Origin: Pseudoxanthomonas sp. CF125
GTDB taxonomy: Bacteria > Pseudomonadota > Gammaproteobacteria > Xanthomonadales > Xanthomonadaceae
NCBI RefSeq assembly: GCF_900104085.1
Contig: NZ_FNLD01000001.1
Location: forward strand, 1,532,331 to 1,596,330
Length of the DNA: 64,000 nucleotides
Reading direction: 5' to 3'
Part shown: one piece after another, positions 9,042 through 38,399 of the stretch
How the letters are laid out: every line of letters begins with the position of its first letter
How positions within the stretch are numbered: the first letter of the stretch is position 1
Notes under the pieces: generated by a model
What the model was told of the DNA's origin: nothing
Databases searched by the model: none
The model's input: only the letters and a program-made list of their open reading frames with translations
Program-made: the position numbers and the translations under genes

Positions 9042-10511
<1,470 letters not shown>

Positions 10512-10514
10512 CCC

Positions 10515-10585
10515 TGTAGGAGCGCCTCCTGGGCGCGAGCTCTTGCTCGAAGATCAAAAGCTCGCGCCCAGGAGACGCTCCTACA
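10515..10585. repeat. REPIN-like inverted repeat (GTAGGAGC family)
   Basis: Left arm TGTAGGAGCGCCTCCTGGGC continuing GCGAGC, right arm GCTCGCGCCCAGGAGACGCT continuing CCTACA. The arms pair nearly perfectly around a short loop, and each arm is also self-complementary. It lies inside the suf operon, between sufB and sufC. The same GTAGGAGC head recurs five more times in the window. Confidence 0.85.
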
Positions 10586-10610
10586 AAGAACAAGAACCCT
10601 GGAAACCGAA

Positions 10611-11375
<765 letters not shown>

Positions 11376-11400
11376 CCGTTGCCACTTTCATCCATACCCA

Positions 11401-11507
11401 AAATCGTCATTCCCGCGAAGGCGGGAACCCAGCGACTTTGGCTCCTTCAAGCGACAAGAGCACAAAGCGAAGGCACTGGGTTCCCGCCTTCGCGGGAATG
11501 ACGATTT
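11401..11507. repeat. 32-bp perfect inverted repeat, CGTCATTCCCGCGAAGGCGG type
   Basis: Left arm 11401-11432 and right arm 11476-11507 are exact reverse complements over 32 bases, separated by a 43-base loop. The ATTCCCGCGAAGGCGGGAA core is a widespread dispersed repeat in proteobacteria and is itself a hairpin. It occupies nearly all of the sufC-sufD gap. A short frame spanning it (from 11336) is read as a by-product. Confidence 0.9.
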
Positions 11508-11526
11508 CTTCTTTTCGTGTGCAATC

Positions 11527-12789
11527 ATGACTGCGCTCCTTGATTCTCTCGCAAGCGGCTTCAACGGCGACGAATCCCGTCGCGCCGTGCTTGACGAAAT
11601 CCTGCGCGACGGCCTGCCCGGCCCCCGCAGCGAGGCGTGGAAGTACACCTCGCTGCGCGCATTGGAGCGGCGCGGTTTCGCCATGGTGGAGTCGGCGCCG
11701 GAAATCGACATCGAATTGCTGGCTGGCATACCGTCGCCACGCATCGCCTTCGTCAACGGCCTGTACTCGCCGGTCCTGTCGGCGACCGACGGCCTGCCCC
11801 ACGGCGTCAGTCTGCAACTGCTGTCCGAAGTACTCGCCGCGGGCACCGATACCGCCCGGTTCCTGGCCCGCCGCTTTGAACGCCACGACGAGATCTTCGC
11901 GCGCCTCAATGCCGCATTGGCCAGCGAAGGCGTGTTGCTCCGCGCCGAGGCCGGCGTCGACACCGCAAAGCCCTTGCATCTGGTCTTCATCGGCGCCGAC
12001 GACGGCACCGACCGCGCCTGGCACCTGCGCAATCTGATCGAGCTGCGCGAAGAGGCGAAGCTATCGCTGGTCGAACACCACCTGGCCAGCGGCGCGCACG
12101 CGCATTTCGCCAATTCGCTGACCCACGTGCATCTGGCGCGCGGCGCCGCACTCGACCACGCACGCATCCAGCACGAGAGCGAGCGCGCCACTTCGTTCCT
12201 GCGTACCGATGCCGTGCTCGGCCGCGACACCCAATACCGGCGCACCGACCTCGAACTGGGCGCCGCGCTTTCCCGTCACGAGCTCAACGTGCGCCTGGAA
12301 GGCGACAATGCGCGGCTGACCGCCAATGGCGTACTGCTGGCGGGCGGCAAACGCCATGTCGACACGCGCCTGGGCATCGAGCACATCGCCCGCGACACGT
12401 CCTGCGAGCTGACCTGGCGCGGTTTGGGCGCCGGCCGAGGCCGCGCCGTTTTCCATGGCGGCATATTGATCCGCGAAGGCGCCGACGGCAGCGACGCCAT
12501 GCTTTCCAACAAGAACCTGCTGTTGTCCGAAGGCGCGGAAATAGATACCCAGCCGGTGCTGGAAATCCACGCCGATGAAGTCAAGGCCGCACACGGCGCC
12601 ACGGTGGGTCGCCTGGATGCCAACGCCCTGTTCTATCTGCGTTCGCGCGGCCTGCCGGAAGATCTGGCGCAACAGCTGCTCACCGCCGCGTTCTGCCGCG
12701 AACCACTGATGCAGATCTCCGATGCTACGGTCGCGGCGCTGCTGACCGCGCAGCTGGACCACGCCTTGACCACCGCTGGAGTGGCCTGA
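11527..12789 (+). CDS. sufD: Fe-S cluster assembly protein SufD
   Basis: A 420-residue SufD, the SufB paralogue that completes the SufBC2D scaffold and is linked to iron entry. Seen: GPRSEAWKYTSLRAL near the N-terminus (SufD proteins have PR.E.WKYT), the beta-helix core and the C-terminal CSHGATVGRLD-like segment, here AAHGATVGRLDANALFYLRS, followed by ARG-type SRGLPEDLAQQLL. Length is normal. It is 3 bases from sufS, so the two are cotranscribed. Confidence 0.92.
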   Translation: MTALLDSLASGFNGDESRRAVLDEILRDGLPGPRSEAWKYTSLRALERRGFAMVESAPEIDIELLAGIPSPRIAFVNGLYSPVLSATDGLPHGVSLQLLSEVLAAGTDTARFLARRFERHDEIFARLNAALASEGVLLRAEAGVDTAKPLHLVFIGADDGTDRAWHLRNLIELREEAKLSLVEHHLASGAHAHFANSLTHVHLARGAALDHARIQHESERATSFLRTDAVLGRDTQYRRTDLELGAALSRHELNVRLEGDNARLTANGVLLAGGKRHVDTRLGIEHIARDTSCELTWRGLGAGRGRAVFHGGILIREGADGSDAMLSNKNLLLSEGAEIDTQPVLEIHADEVKAAHGATVGRLDANALFYLRSRGLPEDLAQQLLTAAFCREPLMQISDATVAALLTAQLDHALTTAGVA

Positions 12790-12792
12790 GCC

Positions 12793-14043
12793 ATGAACGC
12801 CCCGCATACCGCTACGGCAACGGCCTCTCTCCCCGATTGGGAAGGTATCCGCTCCGACTTCCCGCTGCTCGCGCGCGAAGTCCATGGCAAACCGCTGATC
12901 TACCTGGACAGCGCCAACACCGGCCAGAAACCGGCTTCGGTCATAGAGACAGTGGACGATTTCTATCGCCGCCACAACGCCAACGTCAGCCGGGCCGTGC
13001 ATACCCTGGGCACCGAAGCGACCGACGCCTACGAAGGCGCGCGCGGCAAACTGGCGCGCTTCCTCAACGTGCGCCCCGACGAGCTGGTGCTGTGCAGCGG
13101 AACCACCTTCGCGATCAACCTGGTGGCTTATTCATGGGCGTTGCCGCGGCTGAAGGCCGGAGACACCATTCTGGTGTCGCGCATGGAACATCACGCCAAC
13201 ATCGTGCCGTGGCAACTCGTCGCCGAACGGACCGGCGCCAGCATCAAGGTCGCCGAATTGACCGCGGACGGAAGTCTGGATTTGCCGGCACTGTATGCGG
13301 CGATGACCGCCGACGTGAAACTGCTGGCGCTGGCGCACGTCTCCAATGTGCTGGGCACGGTGAACCCGGTTCGCGAAATCTGCCGCGAGGCCCGCAAGCG
13401 CGGCATCGTGACCGTCATCGACGGCTCCCAGGCCGCCCCCCACCGCACCCTGGACGTGGCCGCGATCGGTTGCGATTTCTACGCCATCACCGGCCACAAG
13501 ATGTGCGGCCCCACCGGCACCGGCGCTCTGTGGGCCAGGCGCGAGCATCTGCAAACGATGCCTCCGTTCATCGGCGGCGGCGAAATGATCCGCGAAGTCA
13601 GCTTCGAAGGCACCGTGTTCAACGATGCCCCGCACAAGTTCGAGGCCGGCACGCCCAACATCGCCGGCTTCATCGGCCTGGGCGCCGCAGTGGACTACCT
13701 GCAATCGGTCGGCATGGCGCATATCGAGGCGCGGGAAGGCGAATTGCTCGCCCACGCGACCGAGGAGCTGCTGAAGGTCGACGGCCTGCGCATCTTCGGG
13801 CGTGCGCCAGGCAAGGCTGCGGTGATCTCGTTCCTGATCGAAGGCGCGCACGCGCACGACCTGGCCACCCTGCTGGACCTGGAAGGCGTCGCCATCCGTT
13901 CCGGCCAGCATTGCGCGCATCCCCTGCTGCAATCCCTGGGCGTGGCCGCCACTTGCCGCGCCTCGCTGGCGTTCTACAACACGCACGATGAGATCGAGCG
14001 GTTTGTGGCCGCGCTGAAGAAAGCACGCAGCCTGCTGGCCTGA
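12793..14043 (+). CDS. sufS: cysteine desulfurase SufS
   Basis: A 416-residue PLP-dependent cysteine desulfurase that releases sulfur from L-cysteine for the SUF scaffold. Seen: the PLP lysine Lys236 in ITGHKMCGPTG and the persulfide-forming Cys374 in RSGQHCAHP, the group II (SufS/Csd) pattern. Asp210 in VIDGSQAAPH contacts the cofactor. It begins 3 bases after sufD. No sufE or sufU sulfur-acceptor gene is adjacent; it may be elsewhere on the chromosome. Confidence 0.93.
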   Translation: MNAPHTATATASLPDWEGIRSDFPLLAREVHGKPLIYLDSANTGQKPASVIETVDDFYRRHNANVSRAVHTLGTEATDAYEGARGKLARFLNVRPDELVLCSGTTFAINLVAYSWALPRLKAGDTILVSRMEHHANIVPWQLVAERTGASIKVAELTADGSLDLPALYAAMTADVKLLALAHVSNVLGTVNPVREICREARKRGIVTVIDGSQAAPHRTLDVAAIGCDFYAITGHKMCGPTGTGALWARREHLQTMPPFIGGGEMIREVSFEGTVFNDAPHKFEAGTPNIAGFIGLGAAVDYLQSVGMAHIEAREGELLAHATEELLKVDGLRIFGRAPGKAAVISFLIEGAHAHDLATLLDLEGVAIRSGQHCAHPLLQSLGVAATCRASLAFYNTHDEIERFVAALKKARSLLA

Positions 14044-14083
14044 CCGCTCCTACGCCGTATCGGAAAGCGGATAAAATTCCGCC

Positions 14084-14623
14084 ATGACCGAATTTACCTT
14101 CCGCCCCGCGACGCTCGCGGACATAGACGCCCTGGTCGTACTGGTGACTTCCGCCTACCGGGGCGACGCCAGCAAGCAGGGCTGGACCACCGAAGCCGAC
14201 ATGCTGGATGGGCAGCGCATCGACCCCACCGTGCTGCGCAAGGACATCGAACGCGAGCGCAGCCTGATCATCATCGCCGAGCGCGAAGCGCAATTGCTGG
14301 CCTGCGCGCATGTGGCCGAGGAAAACGGCGCCGGCTACTTCGGCATGTTCTCGGTCCAGCCCGGCCTGCAGGGCGGTGGCGTGGGCAAGTTGCTGCTGGC
14401 CGAGACCGAACGCATCGCGCGCGACGAGTGGCGGCTGCCGGCGATGCGCATGACCGTGATCGATATCCGCGATGAGCTGATAGCCTTCTACGAGCGCCGC
14501 GGCTACCGCCGCACCGGCATCACCAAGCCCTTCCCTTACGGCGACGAGCGTTTTGGCATTCCCAAACGCGACGACCTGCGCTTCGAAATACTAGAGAAGG
14601 TTTTCGGCGGAGAAGGAGCGTGA
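14084..14623 (+). CDS. GNAT-family N-acetyltransferase
   Basis: A 179-residue GCN5-related acyltransferase expected to use acetyl-CoA. Seen: the FRPATLADIDALVVL opening, the acetyl-CoA loop QPGLQGGGVGKLLL (about residues 92-105) and the C-terminal IAFYERRGYRRTGITKPFPY typical of GNATs. It lies 40 bases after sufS, and its stop overlaps the start of the Rieske gene. The operon position suggests a role with Fe-S assembly, but the substrate is unknown. Confidence 0.85.
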   Translation: MTEFTFRPATLADIDALVVLVTSAYRGDASKQGWTTEADMLDGQRIDPTVLRKDIERERSLIIIAEREAQLLACAHVAEENGAGYFGMFSVQPGLQGGGVGKLLLAETERIARDEWRLPAMRMTVIDIRDELIAFYERRGYRRTGITKPFPYGDERFGIPKRDDLRFEILEKVFGGEGA

Positions 14624-14952
14624 GCGAGACCTGGACCTTCGTCTGCGCCGTCAGCGAGCTGCTTCCGGGTGAAATGAAGACCGCCTGGGACGAAGTGACC
14701 TCGGTGCCGATCGTGGTGTTCAACTACGACGGCGAGTATTACGCGCTCGAGGACAAGTGCAGCCACGAGGATTTCGAACTTTCGGCGGGCAGCTTCGATC
14801 CGGAGGAAGCCACCATCGAGTGCGTGCTTCATGGTGCGCGCTTCGACGTCCGCAACGGCATGCCGCTGTGCGCGCCGGCCTACACGGGCGTGCCCAAGTT
14901 CCCGGTCAAGCAGGAGCATGACGCCCTCTGGACCCGCGACGACCGCGATTGA
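14620..14952 (+). CDS. Rieske [2Fe-2S] ferredoxin-like protein
   Basis: A 110-residue soluble Rieske protein of the type annotated as non-heme iron oxygenase ferredoxin subunit. The four cluster ligands are Cys47 and His49 (CSH) and Cys68 and His71 (CVLH). It begins at GTG 14620, whose last two bases form part of the TGA stop of the GNAT gene, so translation is coupled. At the end of the suf operon it could donate electrons to cluster assembly or be a client; the partner is not shown by the sequence. Confidence 0.88.
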   Translation: MSETWTFVCAVSELLPGEMKTAWDEVTSVPIVVFNYDGEYYALEDKCSHEDFELSAGSFDPEEATIECVLHGARFDVRNGMPLCAPAYTGVPKFPVKQEHDALWTRDDRD

Positions 14953-15015: not shown

Positions 15016-15057
15016 TGTCGCTTGACCGGGGCAAAGCCCCACTACATTGAGCCGAGA

Positions 15058-17355
15058 ATGAACCCCACGCTGCGCCTCTCCCCCCTTTCTGCCGCCCTGT
15101 TGCTGGTGATTTCCGCCCCGGCCCTCGCCGATCTGGCGCCCGACAAGACCGCCACGCAGCTGGATGCCGTCGAGGTCCAGGGAAGCAAGATCGACAAACC
15201 CTCTTCGCCGAAATACACCGAGGCGCTTCTCGATACTCCCCAGACCATCACCGTGGTCAACAAGGCGACGATGGACCAGCAGGGCCTGATCGGCCTGCGC
15301 GACGTGCTCAGCACCCTGCCCGGCATCACCTTCGGCGCGGGCGAAGGCGGCGGCGGCTACGGCGACAGCATCAACCTGCGCGGCTTCACCGCCAACAGCG
15401 ACATCACCACCGACGGCGTGCGCGACAGTGCGCAATACAGCCGCACCGACAACTTCAACCTGGAATCGATCGAGCTGGTGAACGGCGCCAACTCGGTGTA
15501 CTCCGGCGCCGGTTCGGTTGGAGGCAACATCAACTTGGTCAGCAAGGCTGCCCAGCTGGGCGATTCGAACGTCTTTACGCTGGGTGCCGGCACGGACGGC
15601 TACGGCCGTGTCACCGCCGACAGCAATTTCGATCTGGACAACGGCGTTGCAGTACGCCTGAACGCTATGGGCCACATCCAGGATGTACCTGGCCGTGACG
15701 AAGAGTTCAAGCACCGCTGGGGTTTCGCGCCGTCTATCGCCTTTGGCCTCGGATCGGATACACGCTTCACCCTCAGCTACCTGCACCAAGAAGACGACAA
15801 CATGCCGCAATACGGAGTCCCGTATTCGCTCGGCCCATTCAATGATGGCCCGCTTCCTGGCGTGGACAGGGAAACCTACTTCGGCTACAGGAATACTTCG
15901 CGCCAGGAAATCGAAGTAGACATGCTTACCGGCGTGTTCGAGATGGACCTGAGCGACAAGCTGACCCTTCGCAGTCTGGGCCGTTTGCAGCGCGTCGAAC
16001 AATCTCTGAATGTAACGGCTCTTCAAGGTTCTTGGTGCCTTTTCGACGGCACCGATCCATTCACCGGGCAAGCCTGCGCAAACGGGCAACCCGCGGGAAC
16101 CTGGTCGCCTACTGGTGGCCCGCGCGGCAATGTGCGCGACACCGAAAATTTCATAGCTCACAGCCAAACCGACCTCACTGCGATCTTCAACACCGGTTCC
16201 GTCGAACATCACCTAGTCGCGGGCGTCTCCTTCAGCAAGGAAGATTTCGAGTTGGATGGCGGGAACGCCTTCCGAAATGCCGACGGTAGTGCGCTTCCCA
16301 ACGACAATACGGCCTATCCGCTGCAGAACCTCGACAATCCCTACAACATCTGGACCGGCCCCACCCACTACGTCCGAACCAGCCGCAGCAAGGGCAGTGT
16401 GAACAACCAGGCGGTGTACCTGTTCGACACCCTCAAGTTCAGCGAGCAGTGGATGCTGAACCTGGGTGCGCGCTACGAGCACAATGAAGGCAGCACCACA
16501 AACTACACCGTATCTAGCGCCGGCACAGTCACCGGCGTCGCTGCCGACAACCCTTTCCGCAACGAAGACGACCTGTTTTCCTATCGTGCCGGTCTCGTCT
16601 ACAAGCCCGTGGACAACGCCAGCGTTTACCTCTCCTATTCCAACTCCAAAACCCCTTCGAAATCCTCCGTCAATGCTTCGTGCAGCGCCACGACCTGCAA
16701 CGTCGATCCGGAAACGGCTGTCAACATCGAGCTCGGCAGCAAATGGGACATCATCGAAAACCGTCTGGCGTTGACGGCGGCCCTGTTCCGCAACGAACGC
16801 AAGAACTACAAAGTAGCCAGCGCCGACCCATTGCTGCCGGAGCAGGTTCTTGACGGGAAAGCGCGCGTGGACGGTCTGGCGTTGGGCGCTGCCGGAAACA
16901 TCACCCGTGAGTGGTCAATTTTCGCGAACTACACCTTCCTCGACAGCGAAGTGCTGCAGAATGCGGCCGACGAAGCTACCAGCGATCCCGTCAGGGGCAA
17001 GATGCTGACCCAAACGCCGAAGCACTCGGCGGGCTTGTGGACTGCTTATGAGCTGGGCGACTGGACATTCGGATATGGCGCCACCTATCAAGGTGCGTTC
17101 TACCCCAACAATAACTCCGAGGCCGTATATCGCAAGACCGATGCGTACTGGGTGCATCGCGCTATGGTTGGTTACCGGGTCAACGCAAACGTCGCCCTAC
17201 AGCTCAACCTCAACAATCTTTTCGACGAAGAGTACTACACCAGCATCCGAAACAACTTGACCGTTAACTCCAGCGGCGTCGTCACTGCCGGCAACGGCTG
17301 GGCGATTCCCGGCGAAGGCCGTTCGGCGGTGCTGACGGCCACCTTCAAGTTCTGA
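15058..17355 (+). CDS. TonB-dependent siderophore receptor (Fiu-like)
   Basis: A 765-residue outer-membrane receptor for ferric siderophores, energised by TonB. A signal peptide (cleavage near APALA) precedes the TonB-box and plug region with LDTPQTITVVNKATMDQQGL and INLRGF..DGVRD segments, then a 22-strand barrel ending in the C-terminal Phe of TATFKF. The plug sequence and the PiuC gene that follows resemble catecholate receptors of the Fiu/PiuA type. ATG 15058 is preferred because it opens the signal peptide. A Fur-box promoter lies 45 bases upstream and a terminator follows. Substrate choice within catecholates is inferred. Confidence 0.88.
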   Translation: MNPTLRLSPLSAALLLVISAPALADLAPDKTATQLDAVEVQGSKIDKPSSPKYTEALLDTPQTITVVNKATMDQQGLIGLRDVLSTLPGITFGAGEGGGGYGDSINLRGFTANSDITTDGVRDSAQYSRTDNFNLESIELVNGANSVYSGAGSVGGNINLVSKAAQLGDSNVFTLGAGTDGYGRVTADSNFDLDNGVAVRLNAMGHIQDVPGRDEEFKHRWGFAPSIAFGLGSDTRFTLSYLHQEDDNMPQYGVPYSLGPFNDGPLPGVDRETYFGYRNTSRQEIEVDMLTGVFEMDLSDKLTLRSLGRLQRVEQSLNVTALQGSWCLFDGTDPFTGQACANGQPAGTWSPTGGPRGNVRDTENFIAHSQTDLTAIFNTGSVEHHLVAGVSFSKEDFELDGGNAFRNADGSALPNDNTAYPLQNLDNPYNIWTGPTHYVRTSRSKGSVNNQAVYLFDTLKFSEQWMLNLGARYEHNEGSTTNYTVSSAGTVTGVAADNPFRNEDDLFSYRAGLVYKPVDNASVYLSYSNSKTPSKSSVNASCSATTCNVDPETAVNIELGSKWDIIENRLALTAALFRNERKNYKVASADPLLPEQVLDGKARVDGLALGAAGNITREWSIFANYTFLDSEVLQNAADEATSDPVRGKMLTQTPKHSAGLWTAYELGDWTFGYGATYQGAFYPNNNSEAVYRKTDAYWVHRAMVGYRVNANVALQLNLNNLFDEEYYTSIRNNLTVNSSGVVTAGNGWAIPGEGRSAVLTATFKF

Positions 17356-17433: not shown

Positions 17434-18120
17434 ATGCTGCTGAACATTCCCGACGTGCTCAATGCCGAACAGGTGGCGGCCTTCCGCGCGCGGCTGGATT
17501 CCGCCGACTGGGCCGATGGCCGCATCACCGCCGGCTACCAGTCGGCCAAGGCCAAGGACAACGCCCAGTTGCCGGAAGATTCGGTTGTGGCGCGCGAACT
17601 GGGTTCGGCCGTGCTCGAAGCACTGTCGCGCAACAGCACATTCTTCTCCGCCGCCCTGCCGAAGCGGGTCTACCCGCCGCTGTTCAACCGTTATGCGAGC
17701 GGGCAATCGTTCGGTTTCCACGTGGACAACGCCGTACGCTACGACCGCAGCCGCGGCGCACCTGAAGCGGTACGCACCGATCTGTCGGCTACGCTTTTTC
17801 TTTCCGCGCCCGAGGACTACGACGGCGGCGAACTCATCATCGAAGACACCTACGGCATACAGAGCATCAAATTGCCCGCTGGCCATCTGGTGCTGTATCC
17901 GGGTACCAGCCTGCACAAGGTCACTCCGGTGACGCGCGGCGCACGGGTCGCTTCGTTCTTCTGGATCCAGAGCATGGTCCGCGACGACGGGCAACGCCGG
18001 CTGATGTTCGACCTGGACGTGTCGATACGTCGGCTGACCCAGGAACTGCCCGACCACCCGGCCCTGGTGCAGCTGACCGGGGTCTACCACAACCTCCTGC
18101 GGCAATGGAGCGAGGTCTGA
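17434..18120 (+). CDS. PKHD-type Fe(II)/2-oxoglutarate hydroxylase (PiuC/YbiX)
   Basis: A 228-residue non-heme iron dioxygenase that is regularly encoded next to Fiu/PiuA-type receptors. Seen: the iron-binding His96-x-Asp98 ([10 protein letters not shown]) and distal His161 (SLHKVTPV), plus Arg168 for 2-oxoglutarate. The length matches the family (about 226 residues). Its substrate in iron uptake is not settled. It starts 20 bases after a terminator. No separate Fur box was seen for it, so expression may come from partial read-through. Confidence 0.88.
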
Positions 18121-18148: not shown

Positions 18149-18177
18149 TTGAGAGTGATTCTCATCTGTGTTGTAAT
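18149..18177 (+). promoter_or_regulatory. Fur-box promoter of the PepSY-ApbE reductase operon
   Basis: A -35 element TTGAGA (18149-18154) and -10 element TGTAAT (18172-18177) are 17 bases apart. The near-palindrome TGAGAGTGATTCTCA (18150-18164) overlaps the -35 and matches the 7-1-7 Fur consensus at about 12 of 14 positions. It controls the PepSY gene and, by close spacing, probably the four genes behind it. Confidence 0.72.
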
Positions 18178-18182
18178 AGCGG

Positions 18183-18854
18183 TTGCTTCCCACCCGCCGG
18201 AACCATCGCTTGTCGCGCAGCGCTCCTTCTACGGATATCTCCAGCAGCCAGCAGCGACGCGGCTTCTGGCTGCGCACGCTGCACCAGTGGCACTGGATCA
18301 GCTCGGCGGTGTGCCTGATCGGGATGCTGTTGTTCGCCGCAACCGGCATCACCCTCAACCACGCCTCGAAGATCGAATCGAAACCGCAGGTCGTCAACCG
18401 TACCGCACAGCTGCCCGTTGCCCTGATGTCGGGCCTGGGCGATCGCGCTGAAGGAAACGCCCCGCTGCCGGAATCGGCTGCGGATTGGTTGGGCGATCGC
18501 TTCGGAGTTTCCATCGGCGCGCGCGAGGCGGAATGGTCGGAAGAGGAAATCTACCTGTCCCTGCCGACGCCCGGCGCGGACGCCTGGCTCAGCATCGATC
18601 GTACGAGCGGCGCGGTTGAGTTCGAACGCACCGAACGCGGCTGGATCTCCTATTTCAACGATTTGCACAAGGGCCGCAACGCAGGACCGGCTTGGAGCTG
18701 GTTCCTGGATATCTTCGCCGTCGCTTGCCTGGTGTTCTGCATCACCGGTTTGTTCCTGCTGCAGATGCACGCCAAACAGCGGCGCATGACCTGGCCGTAT
18801 GTCGGCCTGGGGCTGATCGTGCCGCTGCTGCTCGCCTTGCTCTTCATCCACTGA
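18183..18854 (+). CDS. PepSY-associated transmembrane protein
   Basis: About 223 residues with three membrane helices (about 38-58, 172-194 and 203-222 from the TTG) and a periplasmic domain between the first two. Candidate heme-ligating histidines typical of PepSY membrane reductases are seen: HQWH (34 and 37), His60 at the end of helix one, DLHKGR (162) and His196. No ATG fits: the start is TTG 18183 or TTG 18210, the second giving a normal leader from the Fur-box promoter. It is shorter than full PiuB-type proteins (usually over 350 residues). It probably passes electrons across the inner membrane with the flavoprotein at 21324. Confidence 0.82.
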   Translation: MLPTRRNHRLSRSAPSTDISSSQQRRGFWLRTLHQWHWISSAVCLIGMLLFAATGITLNHASKIESKPQVVNRTAQLPVALMSGLGDRAEGNAPLPESAADWLGDRFGVSIGAREAEWSEEEIYLSLPTPGADAWLSIDRTSGAVEFERTERGWISYFNDLHKGRNAGPAWSWFLDIFAVACLVFCITGLFLLQMHAKQRRMTWPYVGLGLIVPLLLALLFIH

Positions 18855-18873
18855 TTTCCCATCGAGCGATCCT

Positions 18874-19404
18874 ATGTCCAAGATCAACGTCACCACCAAG
18901 CTGACCATCGCCCTGAGCGGTTTGCTGGCGCTTCCGGCCTATGCCGCGGAACTCAATCTCAGCGTCGAAATACCGCAATTGAACGTGGCCGAATATCACC
19001 GCCCGTACGTCGCGATCTGGCTGGAAGGCGCCGACCAGAAAGTCGCCGCCGACCTGTCCGTCTGGTACCAGATGAAGGACACCAAGGAAGGCCACGGCAC
19101 CAAGTGGCTGCCCGACCTGCGCCAGTGGTGGCGCAAGTCCGGCCGCAGCTTGAAAGTGCCGGTGGACGGCGTGACCGGACCGACCCGGCCCGTAGGCAAA
19201 CACGCATTGAAATTCACCGACAAGCAGCCTGCCCTGGCCAAGCTCGCGCCGGGCAACTACACCCTGGTGGTGGAAGCCGCGCGCGAAGTCGGTGGCCGCG
19301 AACTGGTCAAGATTCCCTTCACCTGGCCAGCCAAAGCGCCGCAATCCGGCAAGGCGCAGGGCAGCAGCGAGATCGGTGCGGTGACTTTGGCCGTCAAGCC
19401 CTGA
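18874..19404 (+). CDS. DUF2271 periplasmic protein, putative flavinylated carrier
   Basis: A 176-residue exported protein with a clear signal peptide (cleavage near PAYAA). The DUF2271 domain is recognised from YVAIWLEGADQK, LSVWYQMKD and WWRKSG. Residues 98-104 read DGVTGPT, close to the DxxSGAT/DxxTGAT motif whose Ser/Thr receives FMN from ApbE in NqrC and RnfG. Thr101 would be the acceptor. It lies 19 bases after the PepSY gene and shares the operon with apbE. A periplasmic flavin carrier role is an inference. Confidence 0.8.
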   Translation: MSKINVTTKLTIALSGLLALPAYAAELNLSVEIPQLNVAEYHRPYVAIWLEGADQKVAADLSVWYQMKDTKEGHGTKWLPDLRQWWRKSGRSLKVPVDGVTGPTRPVGKHALKFTDKQPALAKLAPGNYTLVVEAAREVGGRELVKIPFTWPAKAPQSGKAQGSSEIGAVTLAVKP

Positions 19405-19464
19405 TACGGAAGCATTTCCGCCTGCTTCCACTAATACGTTCCCATTCCCACGTTGGAGTCATCG

Positions 19465-20271
19465 ATGAAACGCACCGCACTCGCACTGGTTGTTTCGCTT
19501 GCCGTCATGCCCTTCACCGCCATGGCGCACAAGGCTTGGCTGCAGCCCTCCGAAACCGTACTGGCCGGTGCCGATCCCTGGGTCACTGTGGACGCCGCGG
19601 TTTCCAACGACCTGTTCTATTTCAACCACGTGCCGCTGCCGCTGGAACGCCTGGCCATCACCGCGCCCGATGGCAGCAAGGTCGATGCGCAGAACGGGGC
19701 GACCGGCCAATACCGCAGCGTGTTCGACGTGCAGCTGAAGCAGCAAGGCACCTATCGCATCGCGATGGTCAACAGCGGCCTGTCCGCAAGCTGGGACGAA
19801 GGCGGCAAACCCAAGCGCTGGCGCGGTACTGCCGAAAAATTCGCCAGTGAAGTGCCGAAAGACGCCAAGGACCTGAAGGTCACACAATCGGTGGGCCGCG
19901 TGGAAACCTTCGTCACCAACGGTTCGCCCAACGACACCGCGCTGAAGCCGACCGGCGAAGGCATCGAGCTGGTACCGGTGACGCATCCCAACGATTTGTT
20001 TGCCGGCGAAGCGGCGAAGTTCAAGCTGCAGATCGACGGCAAGCCTGCAGCGGGTTTGGAATTGGAGATCGTGCGCGGCGGCACCCGTTACCGGAATGCG
20101 CAGGAAGAGATCAAGGTCAAGACCGACGCCAACGGCGAGTTCAGCGTGACCTGGCCGGAAGCGGGTATGTACTGGCTGGAAACCGCATCGGAAGACACCA
20201 AGACCTCCCTGCCCCAGGCCAAGCAACGTCGCCTGAGTTATGTGGCCACCCTGGAAGTGCTGCCGCAGTAA
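19465..20271 (+). CDS. DUF4198 periplasmic protein
   Basis: A 268-residue exported protein: signal peptide ending TAMAHKAW, an N-terminal domain with [20 protein letters not shown] and a C-terminal Ig-like strand set ([20 protein letters not shown]). This is the DUF4198 layout, a family found beside nickel, cobalt and iron uptake genes. His22 right after cleavage is conserved in the family and may bind metal. It follows DUF2271 by 60 bases in the same operon. The role is unknown; metal binding or support of the flavin carrier is possible. Confidence 0.8.
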
Positions 20272-20284
20272 TCCCGGAAAAAGA

Positions 20285-20335
20285 CCGCCGCCCTCGCCTT
20301 GCCGATAAAAAGGCAGGATGCGCGGCGGCGATTTT
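20285..20335 (+). terminator. terminator-like hairpin between DUF4198 and apbE
   Basis: CCGCCGC (20285-20291) pairs with GCGGCGG (20322-20328), with a further imperfect inner stem, followed by TTTT at 20332. The T tract is short and the apbE start follows directly, so it may attenuate rather than stop transcription. Confidence 0.35.
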
Positions 20336-20337
20336 CG

Positions 20338-21327
20338 ATGACCATCGCCCCCGCAAACTACCCGCGAACATCGGCTTCCCTCCACACGTTGCATGGCCAA
20401 ACCATGGGCACGTCGTGGTGCGTGAAGCTGGTGGCATCGCCGCGCGCGGATCTGCATGCGATACACGCAGGAATACAGACGCGGCTGGATTGCGTGGTTG
20501 CGCAGATGAGCACCTGGGAAGAAGGTTCTGACATCAGCCGCTTCAATCGGGCCGCTGCGGGCATCTGGCAACGACTGCCGCCGGAGTTCTTCGCGGTGCT
20601 CGCCTGCGCAATGGAAACGGCGCGTGACAGCGACGGCGCTTACGACCCAACTATCGGAGCGCTGGTGGAAGCATGGGGGTTCGGCCCTGCGGAGGGCGGC
20701 TACGGCGTCCCCGACGAAAGCGAGCTGGCGTCGGCGCAGGCCGGCCTGGGCTGGCAGCGCGTCTCTCTGCGTCCGCAGGACATGAGCGCACTGCAGCCTG
20801 GCGGAGTTCGACTTGATCTCTCCGCCATCGCCAAGGGCTACGGCGTGGATCTGGTCGCCCGGCATTTGCGCGATACCGGTATCGCGGCGGCGTTGATCGA
20901 AGTCGGCGGCGAACTGTACGGCTACGGCCGCAAGCCCGACGGCGGACAGTGGCAAGTACTGGTGGAAGCAGCGCCCGACGCCGAGCCCGATGAAGAAGCG
21001 GCGTGCGTGATCGCGCTCGACGGCATTGCGGTGGCGACCTCGGGCGACCACTGGCACGCATTCGAACAGAATGGAACGCGCTATTCGCACACGCTGGACC
21101 CGCGCACCGGCAGGCCGGTCGAAACCGCCGCGGCGGCAGTCACCGTCGTCGCCGACGATGCCATGCACGCCGACGCGTGGGCGACGGCGCTGACGGTGAT
21201 GGGAGCCGAAGCCGGCTACCGGTTCGCGCAGCAACGAAGCATCGCGGCAAGATTTGTCGTGCGCGGCAGCGACCATGAATTGATCGAAAGCACGACCGAT
21301 GCCTTCCGCACGAGGCTTTCCGCGTGA
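20338..21327 (+). CDS. apbE: FAD:protein FMN transferase (ApbE)
   Basis: A 329-residue ApbE, which transfers FMN from FAD to a Ser or Thr in extracytoplasmic proteins using Mg2+. Seen: QTMGTSWCVKL at the start, MSTWEEGSDISRFN, RLDLSAIAKGYGVDLVA, EVGGELYGYGRKPDG, SHTLDPRTGRPV and the Mg-binding DDAMHADAWATALTVMG near the end. No signal peptide or lipobox is present from ATG 20338 or in the short upstream extension, unlike most ApbE proteins. The next gene starts within its stop codon. The DUF2271 protein two genes upstream is the likely substrate. Confidence 0.9.
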   Translation: MTIAPANYPRTSASLHTLHGQTMGTSWCVKLVASPRADLHAIHAGIQTRLDCVVAQMSTWEEGSDISRFNRAAAGIWQRLPPEFFAVLACAMETARDSDGAYDPTIGALVEAWGFGPAEGGYGVPDESELASAQAGLGWQRVSLRPQDMSALQPGGVRLDLSAIAKGYGVDLVARHLRDTGIAAALIEVGGELYGYGRKPDGGQWQVLVEAAPDAEPDEEAACVIALDGIAVATSGDHWHAFEQNGTRYSHTLDPRTGRPVETAAAAVTVVADDAMHADAWATALTVMGAEAGYRFAQQRSIAARFVVRGSDHELIESTTDAFRTRLSA

Positions 21328-22961
21328 GCGGCGGCATGGCCTCGCCTTCGCGCGCGTTCTGGGGAAATGCGGCATCGCTGGCGCTGCTGGCGCTGATCGC
21401 CGCCGGATTCTTCATGCTGCAGAGCGGCGACTGGTGGCCCGCAATGCCGCGCGCGGATCGCTGGATCGGCGCGGCGATTGCGTTGTGCGCTTATTCGCTG
21501 TTCTGTGCCGGACTGCTCTGGCAGTCTCGGACTCGCAAGATCAGCGACGATACTTCCAGCGCCACCAGCGGAGATTCGCCGGTATTGGTCGTGTATGCCA
21601 GCCAGACCGGCTTCGCGCAGCAGCTGGCCGAACGCAGCGCGGAGAACCTGCGCAGCTCGGGAGTTTCGGTGAAACTCCGGGCCATCGGCGAAGTCGACAG
21701 CGCCATGCTGGCCAACGCCGGACGCGTGCTTTTTGTCGCCAGCACCACCGGCGAAGGCGACCCGCCCGATCAGGCATTGGCTTTCGTGCGTGGCGCGATG
21801 GCGCAGCCCGCGGCATTGGAGAATCTGCGCTACGCAGTGCTGGCCTTGGGCGACCGTGAATACGAACATTTCTGCGGCTTCGGACACCAGTTGGATCGCT
21901 GGCTTCGGCAGCACGGCGCGCAGCCTCTCTTCGATATCGTCGAAGTCGACAATGCCGATGAAAGCGCACTGCGCCATTGGCAGCATCATCTTGGCCAGCT
22001 GGGCGGCGTAACCGATCTTCCCGATTGGACTCAGCCGAGTTACGAGCGATGGAAACTGCTCGAACGCCGCGAACTCAATCCGGGCAGCGTCGGCGGCGGT
22101 GCCTTCCACTTGGCGATCGCTCCGCCTACGGAGTCGAATCCCGCGTGGGTCGCCGGCGACATCGCCGAGATAGGCCCGCAGCACTCCTCCAAAACGGTTG
22201 CGGCTCTGCTGGATCAGGCCGGGCTTGTCGCCGATGCGCCCGTCGTGATCGACGGAAGGTCGCAGACGCTCGCCGAACTGCTGGCCCGCTCGCACCTGCC
22301 CGACATCGACGAAATCCGCGGCAAGGACGCGCAGACCATTGCCGAGGATCTGAAGCCGTTGCCGCACCGCGAATACTCCATTGCCTCGCTGCCCGGCGAT
22401 GGCAGTCTGCAGATCCTTCTGCGCCGGTTGCTGCGTCCCGATGGCACTCCCGGGATCGGCAGCGGCTGGCTGTGCGACTACGCGCCCGTCGGCGGCGAGA
22501 TCGCATTGCGCCTCCGCAGCAACCCCAACTTCCACGCGCCTGCCTCGGCCAAACCGATGATCCTGATCGGCAACGGCACCGGCATCGCCGGGCTGCGTGC
22601 GCATCTGAAGCAGCGCATCGCGGCCGGTTCGCAGCGCAACTGGCTGCTGTTCGGCGAACGCAACTCCGATCGCGATTTCTTCTATGGCGATGAAATACTG
22701 GAATGGCGAAATCGGGGCTATATCGAGCGCCTGGACCTAGCGTTCTCGCGCGACCAGGCCGAACCCGTCTACGTGCAGCAAAAGCTGCTAGCCGCCGCCG
22801 ATCCTTTGCGCGAATGGGTCGAAGCAGGCGCCTCGGTCTACGTCTGTGGCAGCCTCGCCGGCATGGCGCCTGGCGTGGACGGCGTGCTGCGACAGGTCCT
22901 GGGCGATGCGACAGTGGAAAGCATGCTGACGGAAGGCCGCTACCGCCGCGACGTATATTGA
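21324..22961 (+). CDS. membrane-anchored flavodoxin/NAD(P)H reductase
   Basis: A 545-residue diflavin reductase related to CysJ/sulfite reductase flavoprotein. Two N-terminal membrane helices (about 14-32 and 47-66) precede a flavodoxin domain (YASQTGFAQ at 91-99, TTGEGDPPD at 141-149), an FAD-binding domain (RxYS as REYS at 349-352, and GIGSGWLCDY) and an NAD(P) domain (MILIGNGTGIAGL, VYVCGSLAGM). It begins at a GTG overlapping the apbE stop. Such proteins occur with PepSY helices in iron uptake, where they feed electrons from NADPH through FAD and FMN to membrane heme. It probably powers ferric-siderophore reduction here. Confidence 0.85.
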   Translation: MSGGMASPSRAFWGNAASLALLALIAAGFFMLQSGDWWPAMPRADRWIGAAIALCAYSLFCAGLLWQSRTRKISDDTSSATSGDSPVLVVYASQTGFAQQLAERSAENLRSSGVSVKLRAIGEVDSAMLANAGRVLFVASTTGEGDPPDQALAFVRGAMAQPAALENLRYAVLALGDREYEHFCGFGHQLDRWLRQHGAQPLFDIVEVDNADESALRHWQHHLGQLGGVTDLPDWTQPSYERWKLLERRELNPGSVGGGAFHLAIAPPTESNPAWVAGDIAEIGPQHSSKTVAALLDQAGLVADAPVVIDGRSQTLAELLARSHLPDIDEIRGKDAQTIAEDLKPLPHREYSIASLPGDGSLQILLRRLLRPDGTPGIGSGWLCDYAPVGGEIALRLRSNPNFHAPASAKPMILIGNGTGIAGLRAHLKQRIAAGSQRNWLLFGERNSDRDFFYGDEILEWRNRGYIERLDLAFSRDQAEPVYVQQKLLAAADPLREWVEAGASVYVCGSLAGMAPGVDGVLRQVLGDATVESMLTEGRYRRDVY

Positions 22962-37709: not shown

Positions 37710-38399
37710 ATGAAAATCAGGATCACTGTCGCTGCCACTGCCGTAATCGCCGCCGGTCTGCTGGCAGCGGCGAGTCTGCCGGCCGCTGCCGTCGAAGCGT
37801 TCTCGGCCCAATACCAGGCCAGCGCGATGGGCATGCAGGGCGACGGACAGATGTCGATCACCTCGCAGGGCGGCAACCGCTGGCAGTACAGCCTCACCAT
37901 CAAAAACCAGTTGGTGGACTTGAGCCAGAAGACGGTATTCGACGAACAGAAAGGCTGGCTGCGTCCGCTCTCCAGCGCCGACCTGTCGCGGGTGCTGGTG
38001 AAGAAGAAAGCGGTCAATGCGAACTTCGACTGGAGCAAGAGCCAGGCGACGTGGACCGGCGACGTCAAACCGGAACGCGCCGGACCGGTCGCCCTGAAGC
38101 CCGGCGACATGGACGCGCTGCTGGTCAATCTGGCCCTGGTGCGCGACGTCGCCGCCGGCAAGCCGCTGAGCTACCGCATGGTCGAGAACGGCAACGCCAA
38201 GACCATGAGCTACCAGGTGGCCGGCAAGGAAAAGATCACCATCGGCGGACAATCGCGCGACGCCACCAAGGTCGTGCGCACCGCGGGCAACAAGCAGACC
38301 ATCGTCTGGGTAGTGCCCAACATGCCGGTGCCCGCGCGCATCCTGCAACGCGAAGACGGACAGGACTCCATCGACCTGCAGCTCAAGGCCTGGCAGTAA
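37710..38399 (+). CDS. DUF3108 domain-containing exported protein (second copy)
   Basis: A 229-residue paralogue of the preceding gene. It has a signal peptide (cleavage near PAAAVEAF), then FSAQYQASAMGMQGDGQMSI, a VDLSQKTVFDEQKGWLRPLS segment and the same closing pattern PARILQREDGQDSIDLQL. The shared ends show a tandem duplication. It is followed by a bidirectional terminator about 85 bases downstream. Confidence 0.8.
   Translation: MKIRITVAATAVIAAGLLAAASLPAAAVEAFSAQYQASAMGMQGDGQMSITSQGGNRWQYSLTIKNQLVDLSQKTVFDEQKGWLRPLSSADLSRVLVKKKAVNANFDWSKSQATWTGDVKPERAGPVALKPGDMDALLVNLALVRDVAAGKPLSYRMVENGNAKTMSYQVAGKEKITIGGQSRDATKVVRTAGNKQTIVWVVPNMPVPARILQREDGQDSIDLQLKAWQ

Follow-up and report, generated by a model that had tools for sequence, protein, structure and literature searches.

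Gene clusters that encode a PepSY protein, DUF2271 and ApbE, often together with DUF4198, have been described as PepSY-like flavinylation systems, of which 3220 were recorded and for which a role in iron reduction was proposed (Meheust et al., 2021; PMC8238504). The DUF2271 protein of A. ursilacus is flavinylated with its ApbE (PMC8238504). In Caulobacter crescentus, CC_3059–3063 matches the operon studied here in its families and their order. Iron limitation induces its expression, its Fur sites have been validated (PMC3751524), and transposon (Tn) mutants in it (CCNA_03155–03159) are less fit on ethylenediaminetetraacetic acid (EDTA), as are mutants of the receptor–dioxygenase pair cciT–cciO (PMC12004947). 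The subject of this study is an operon of the same type in Pseudoxanthomonas sp. CF125, in which five genes lie in series on the + strand (18183–22961) and encode, according to the open reading frame list and Pfam, a PepSY protein, DUF2271, DUF4198, ApbE and a diflavin reductase. Positions refer to the analyzed stretch of 64,000 nucleotides (the window), which lies on one contig (C6) of a genome of 4.2 Mb with a completeness rating of 100%, and Pfam calls are matches above curated cut-offs.

The locus is a further member of the described PepSY–DUF2271–DUF4198–ApbE–diflavin system, and its operon type is already known. It shares families, order and Fur control with the C. crescentus operon, the control being validated there and predicted here; the Caulobacter cciT–cciO genes (CCNA_00028/27) are distant from that operon by locus tag, whereas a receptor and a dioxygenase are adjacent here. 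Compared with the systems described in PMC8238504, the locus differs in that its ApbE has no export signal and in that Pro replaces Ala in the flavinylation site. The combination of a signal-less ApbE with an exported presumed substrate was not found in print; neither literature searches nor the covered portions of PMC8238504, PMC12052999 and PMC11334425 yielded a statement on signal-less ApbE in such operons.

Export Signals of the Operon ApbE Proteins

DUF2271 and DUF4198 of the locus begin with signal peptides, whereas its ApbE (20338–21327; PF02424, 276 bits, cut-off 25.6), a flavin adenine dinucleotide (FAD):protein flavin mononucleotide (FMN) transferase whose nearest PDB chain is 5mgy (E 5.6e-64), shows neither a signal peptide nor a lipobox or N-terminal anchor anywhere in its open frame upstream of the TMGT motif. 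Two sets of loci were available for comparison. An even draw over the phylum, in which DUF2271 was found in 26 of 200 genomes (E 0.001) and in 65 of 398 (E 1e-20), supplied 67 loci, and a named set comprised 80 loci, the best 80 of at least 516 relatives; doubly fetched loci were counted once. Eleven of the evenly drawn loci show only ApbE and the reductase, because the one-sequence search misses their divergent DUF2271.

An export signal was called from a start codon followed by a positive residue and a 9-residue hydrophobic core, or from a lipobox. Of the separate operon ApbEs, 1 of 42 from the even draw and 2 of 77 from the named set carry a signal by this rule, vs. 53 of 57 ApbEs encoded outside such operons, the latter being mostly best-scoring matches and not an even draw. 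Under ten settings of the rule, the counts ranged over 1–6 of 42, 2–7 of 77 and 51–55 of 57, respectively. L189, an operon copy of L129, stands as an outside ApbE in one count (n = 58) and is excluded from the other (n = 57); L186 gave no ApbE match, and for L081, in which ApbE is split over two frames, the best frame alone was counted. The exceptions among the outside ApbEs are L161, L197, L200 and L146, the last with a lipobox that looks Tat-like by eye.

A wrongly assigned start codon was rejected as the cause of the missing signal by scanning up to 75 codons before the TMGT-like motif from every possible start, and a quirk of the strain was rejected by the signal-less state of 41 of the 42 evenly drawn operon ApbEs. 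A single state change, on a weakly supported branch (38), accounts for the operon copies in a tree of 132 ApbEs, and the signal-bearing L119, L211 and L121 group with the signal-less L118. The signal-less lineage spans Lysobacterales, Solimonas and Burkholderiales and extends into other classes of the phylum. Outside Lysobacterales, signal-less ApbEs often start with R-[VI]-[LIA]-[IV]-P (L202, L203, L213, L215, L221, L223, L227, L229 and others). In L212, L234, L235 and L237, one open frame encodes both ApbE and DUF2271 and begins with a signal; ApbE–DUF2271 fusions are mentioned in PMC8238504.

Partner Protein and Predicted Route of Electrons

This genome encodes one ApbE and one DUF2271, and searches of it for FMN_bind and NqrB/RnfD gave no match. 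Together with this genome, 42 have a signal-less ApbE, and by our own count the operon ApbE is the sole ApbE in 30 of these. Among 23 genomes with DUF2271, 11 have FMN_bind, each with an ApbE encoded outside the operon; in the other 12, which lack FMN_bind, the operon copy is the only one. In two Lysobacterales loci that lack apbE (L122, L127), the only ApbE match of the genome is encoded elsewhere and starts with a lipobox-like signal. Taken together, these patterns suggest that exported FMN_bind proteins pair with non-operon ApbEs, and that DUF2271 pairs with the signal-less ApbE or, where this is absent, with an exported one.

A flavinylation-type site of the form [ST]x[AP][ST] is present in DUF2271 of 128 of 133 loci. 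In the DUF2271 of this locus (18874–19404; PF10029, 176 bits), the predicted FMN site is DGVTGPT, the last Thr of which (Thr104) is presumably the residue that carries FMN. The Pro of this site, which stands where the published [S/T]GA[S/T] motif has Ala, is common to many relatives.

Because ApbE has no recognizable signal while DUF2271 has a signal peptide, FMN attachment is predicted to occur in the cytosol before export. In the proposed sequence of events, low iron would release Fur from its box and allow expression of the genes. Cytosolic ApbE, with FAD at hand, would then place FMN on Thr104 of the DUF2271 preprotein, and Sec would export the flavinylated protein, without need of a flavin exporter. 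Electrons from nicotinamide adenine dinucleotide (phosphate) (NAD(P)H) may pass through FAD and FMN of the diflavin reductase to haems on the PepSY histidines, and these haems may in turn reduce the covalent FMN of periplasmic DUF2271. DUF2271-FMN would reduce ferric iron on chelates imported by the neighboring receptor, and the N-terminal histidine of DUF4198 would bind the released divalent metal and pass it on. We lean slightly towards this account as a whole, that is, a Fur-box operon of known type in which electrons from NAD(P)H cross the inner membrane to ferric chelates and DUF2271 receives its FMN in the cytosol, ahead of export. Its extension to the whole lineage, in which these ApbEs would be cytosolic and would load FMN on the Sec preprotein DUF2271 without an FAD exporter, with the DUF2271 signal tuned to slow export, is tentative and in our judgment falls just short of an even chance.

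Hydrophobicity of the DUF2271 signal was compared as a post hoc idea that is confounded with ancestry, and none of the resulting values is relied on. In a first set of 94 loci (window of 10 residues), medians were 2.14 for loci with a signal-less ApbE (n = 84) and 2.58 for the others (n = 10; P 4.4e-6), and DUF4198 signals differed in the opposite direction. Among 71 Lysobacterales loci, the four whose operon ApbE bears a signal or is missing rank 1–4 with windows of 10 and 12, and 1, 2, 5 and 8 with a window of 8. In a second set of 32 loci, P was 0.0007, 0.155 and 0.85 for windows of 8, 10 and 12, and 1.7e-5, 0.0013 and 0.024 when DUF2271 was taken relative to DUF4198 of the same locus.

The original prediction, made from the sequence alone, placed PepSY histidines for haem, and these are indeed conserved: His28, 51, 153, 187 and 214 are present in 94, 94, 97, 90 and 94 of 97 rows, respectively, and are predicted to hold haem. 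In these conserved haem-type histidines of its membrane helices, the locus protein resembles FoxB-type siderophore reductases; the PepSY reductases FoxB and HiuB have histidine-ligated haem sites and have been connected with siderophore use (PMC12424826). The PepSY model has a predicted local distance difference test score (pLDDT) of 91.9; comparison of PepSY with PDB sequences gave 0 matches and profile matches of E 1.2 or worse, and a Foldseek search of the model gave none at E 0.001. The electron chain to ferric iron set out in the original prediction matches the families and comes near to the proposal of Meheust et al. (2021; PMC8238504); as a whole it is partly supported, and no demonstration of the acceptor, whether a catecholate siderophore or another chelate, was found in the portions of the literature covered. 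The original prediction made no mention of the DUF2271 flavinylation site or of the missing export signal of ApbE.

The statement in the original prediction that the roles of DUF2271 and DUF4198 are not established is out of date, given the flavinylated DUF2271 described above and the DUF4198 structure from Ideonella sakaiensis, which was solved with nickel on the N-terminal histidine (9gcb; PMC12537917). In structure comparison, DUF4198 of the locus (19465–20271; PF10670, 213 bits) has a metal-protein fold of the N-terminal-histidine type, and His22 of its precursor, the predicted mature residue 1, is present in 97 of 97 rows. The 9gcb site consists of His1 and His18, whereas the next conserved histidines of the locus protein are, by numbering, mature residues 34 and 153. 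Copper, zinc or cobalt is bound in the solved relative Zcp (9mhi–9mho); the sequence file for these entries gives phosphoribosylglycinamide formyltransferase, while their titles give Zcp with bound metals, and a literature search for Zcp together with Acinetobacter found nothing. FeoB is encoded in 27 of 32 genomes, including this one, in which its gene lies away from the operon.

Several points weigh against the cytosolic reading of ApbE and the chain built on it. The export-signal rule is not SignalP, and looser settings call up to 6 of 42 and up to 7 of 77 operon ApbEs positive. The signal-less trait is essentially that of one old ApbE lineage, so the counts are not independent events, and the Fisher P of 4.9e-22 for the signal contrast is not independent evidence. 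Signals are present on three operon ApbEs (L119, L121, L211), all from Rhodanobacteraceae or the order to which these belong, and ApbE–DUF2271 fusions are exported as a whole (signal in 4 of 4 under the standard setting, and in 2–4 of 4 across settings). The site of the locus DUF2271 departs from the published motif at Pro, and FeoB was not found in 5 of the 32 genomes. The test of A. ursilacus DUF2271 used a "signal peptide-truncated" ApbE, which implies that the native enzyme has a signal (PMC8238504), and a cytosolic ApbE was unable to replace the periplasmic one in Salmonella (reviewed in PMC12052999). We infer both the cytosolic location of the operon ApbE and its action before export.

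ApbE could also reach the periplasm although it has no classical signal, for instance by being carried along or through an unrecognized route, and flavinylate its target there, as happens in other systems. The periplasmic location is essential for the Salmonella enzyme according to the same review (PMC12052999), and export of nearly all non-operon ApbEs (53 of 57), like the signals of the three operon ApbEs, is in keeping with such a route, but 41 of the 42 evenly drawn loci retain a signal-less ApbE and no alternative signal shared across lineages was seen, which makes this explanation unlikely. A cytosolic enzyme might instead serve a cytosolic protein, with the operon DUF2271 left unflavinylated. 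ApbE of the Klebsiella fumarate reductase is cytosolic and, like ApbE of the locus, has no signal peptide, and its target stays in the cytosol, whereas DUF2271 carries a signal peptide (reviewed in PMC12052999); this alternative is quite improbable given the conservation of the DUF2271 site in 128 of 133 loci and the lack of FMN_bind and NqrB/RnfD matches in the genome, DUF3570 and flavodoxin-type targets being outside that search. The proposed flavinylation of DUF2271 before export has a precedent in Escherichia coli, where fusion proteins that have first received phosphopantetheine or biotin in the cytosol are exported by Sec (PMC3418276).

The destination of the electrons is a separate matter. 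The chain could mainly serve a metal other than siderophore iron, or chelates of any kind, and DUF4198 could carry nickel, zinc or copper, as the metals in its solved relatives (Ni in 9gcb; Cu, Zn or Co in Zcp) and the use of EDTA in the published test of Caulobacter mutants (PMC12004947) would allow; the Fur-box promoter, the nearby receptor and PiuC, and the induction of the Caulobacter operon by iron limitation (PMC3751524) speak against this, however, and we regard such a main role as rather unlikely. A permease reading has been given for Alteromonas PepSY proteins (PMC7190382), but with conserved haem-type histidines and flavoprotein genes encoded alongside, it is highly improbable that PepSY of this operon is a ferric siderophore permease and not an electron carrier. 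Transfer of electrons through PepSY and cytosolically loaded DUF2271 to ferric chelates is the reading that we prefer.

Gene Layout, Promoter and Distribution

The original prediction described five close genes of these families behind a Fur-box promoter, next to a siderophore receptor and PiuC, and this layout was borne out by Pfam matches, by the Fur pattern counts and by the profiles of both neighbors. PepSY (PF16357 PepSY_TM_like_2, 286 bits), a predicted haem membrane protein also matched by PF03929 (43 bits) and adjoined by the flavinylation genes DUF2271 and apbE, is encoded at 18210–18854. By eye, TTG 18210, with GGAA immediately 5′, is the likelier start and TTG 18183 a possible alternative; position 18149 does not mark a gene start but opens a −35-like hexamer. 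The gap between DUF4198 and ApbE (20272–20337) holds a strong hairpin, a possible attenuator by its folding energy (20272–20345; −31.5 kcal/mol, z −3.6), with AUUUUC after it. This structure could reduce expression of the ApbE and reductase genes. The start of the flavodoxin–NAD(P)H reductase (21324–22961; Flavodoxin_1, 107 bits; NAD_binding_1, 41 bits), a CysJ-like diflavin protein, overlaps the ApbE stop (21327), and its membrane anchor, part of the same prediction, corresponds to two N-terminal hydrophobic stretches (about residues 11–35 and 47–66).

The promoter, TTGAGA-17-TGTAAT (18149–18177, + strand), contains the palindromic Fur box TGAGAGTGATTCTCA at 18150–18164, which overlaps the −35 element and the spacer. 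With at most one mismatch, the Fur pattern has three strand matches in the window vs. 0.14 expected; two are both strands of TGAGAGTGATTCTCA and the third is at 37711. Without mismatch, the pattern occurs at four places in the genome, including TGAGAGTGATTCTCA; of the other three, one adjoins a bacterioferritin-like frame and another a TonB-receptor-like frame (by eye). Box-like palindromes scoring at least 11 of 14 lie 5′ of PepSY in 72 of 124 loci vs. 6 of 130 DUF4198 starts. The Fur box is more than a chance occurrence, and expression of the operon on iron starvation is predicted from it.

Upstream on the same strand, a TonB-dependent siderophore-type outer membrane receptor (15052–17355; TIGR01783, 241 bits, cut-off 223.5) that is Fiu-like by best match (NF007349, 432 bits, below the cut-off of 686) is followed by a PiuC/CciO-type Fe(II) dioxygenase (17434–18120; NF003975, 371 bits, cut-off 180), an arrangement like that of the CciT–CciO pair. 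Three iron systems (receptor, PiuC and PepSY reductase) stand side by side at the locus. Directly 5′ of the receptor (9042–14952) are suf-like genes (SufB, SufC, SufD, SufS) and a Rieske-type protein, named by eye.

Co-occurrence of the five families, by which the original prediction was to be checked, was observed and scattering was not: all five genes are present in 74 of the 80 named loci by our own reading, the other six being three that reach a contig end, two that lack apbE and one in which frames are broken, and were recognized in 23 of the 67 evenly drawn loci, where PepSY, DUF2271 and DUF4198 occur together in 47. The closest named DUF2271 relative, from Pseudoxanthomonas sacheonensis, is 95% identical. 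PiuC lies within the fetched stretch in 18 of the 67 evenly drawn loci (13 also with a receptor) and in 60 of the 80 named loci (58 also with a receptor), and its position relative to the operon varies (upstream, downstream or on the opposite strand), which argues for a functional tie. A second layout pairs a signal-less ApbE with a reductase frame that is long (738 codons in L047) and perhaps represents a PepSY–reductase fusion; it occurs in L047, L048, L049, L051, L238–L241 and L243–L245. A Lysobacteraceae-like operon, with DUF2271 77% identical, is also present in L099, a record that bears the title Bacillus subtilis and is probably mislabelled or contaminated.

Consequences if the Operon ApbE Is Cytosolic

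If ApbE of these operons is cytosolic, the usual picture of flavinylation, in which the enzyme and FAD are both outside, would fail for a widespread flavinylated domain. Covalent flavin could then travel by Sec, and a periplasmic flavoprotein would be supplied without flavin export. Surveys that begin by discarding signal-less ApbEs may in that case undercount this class.

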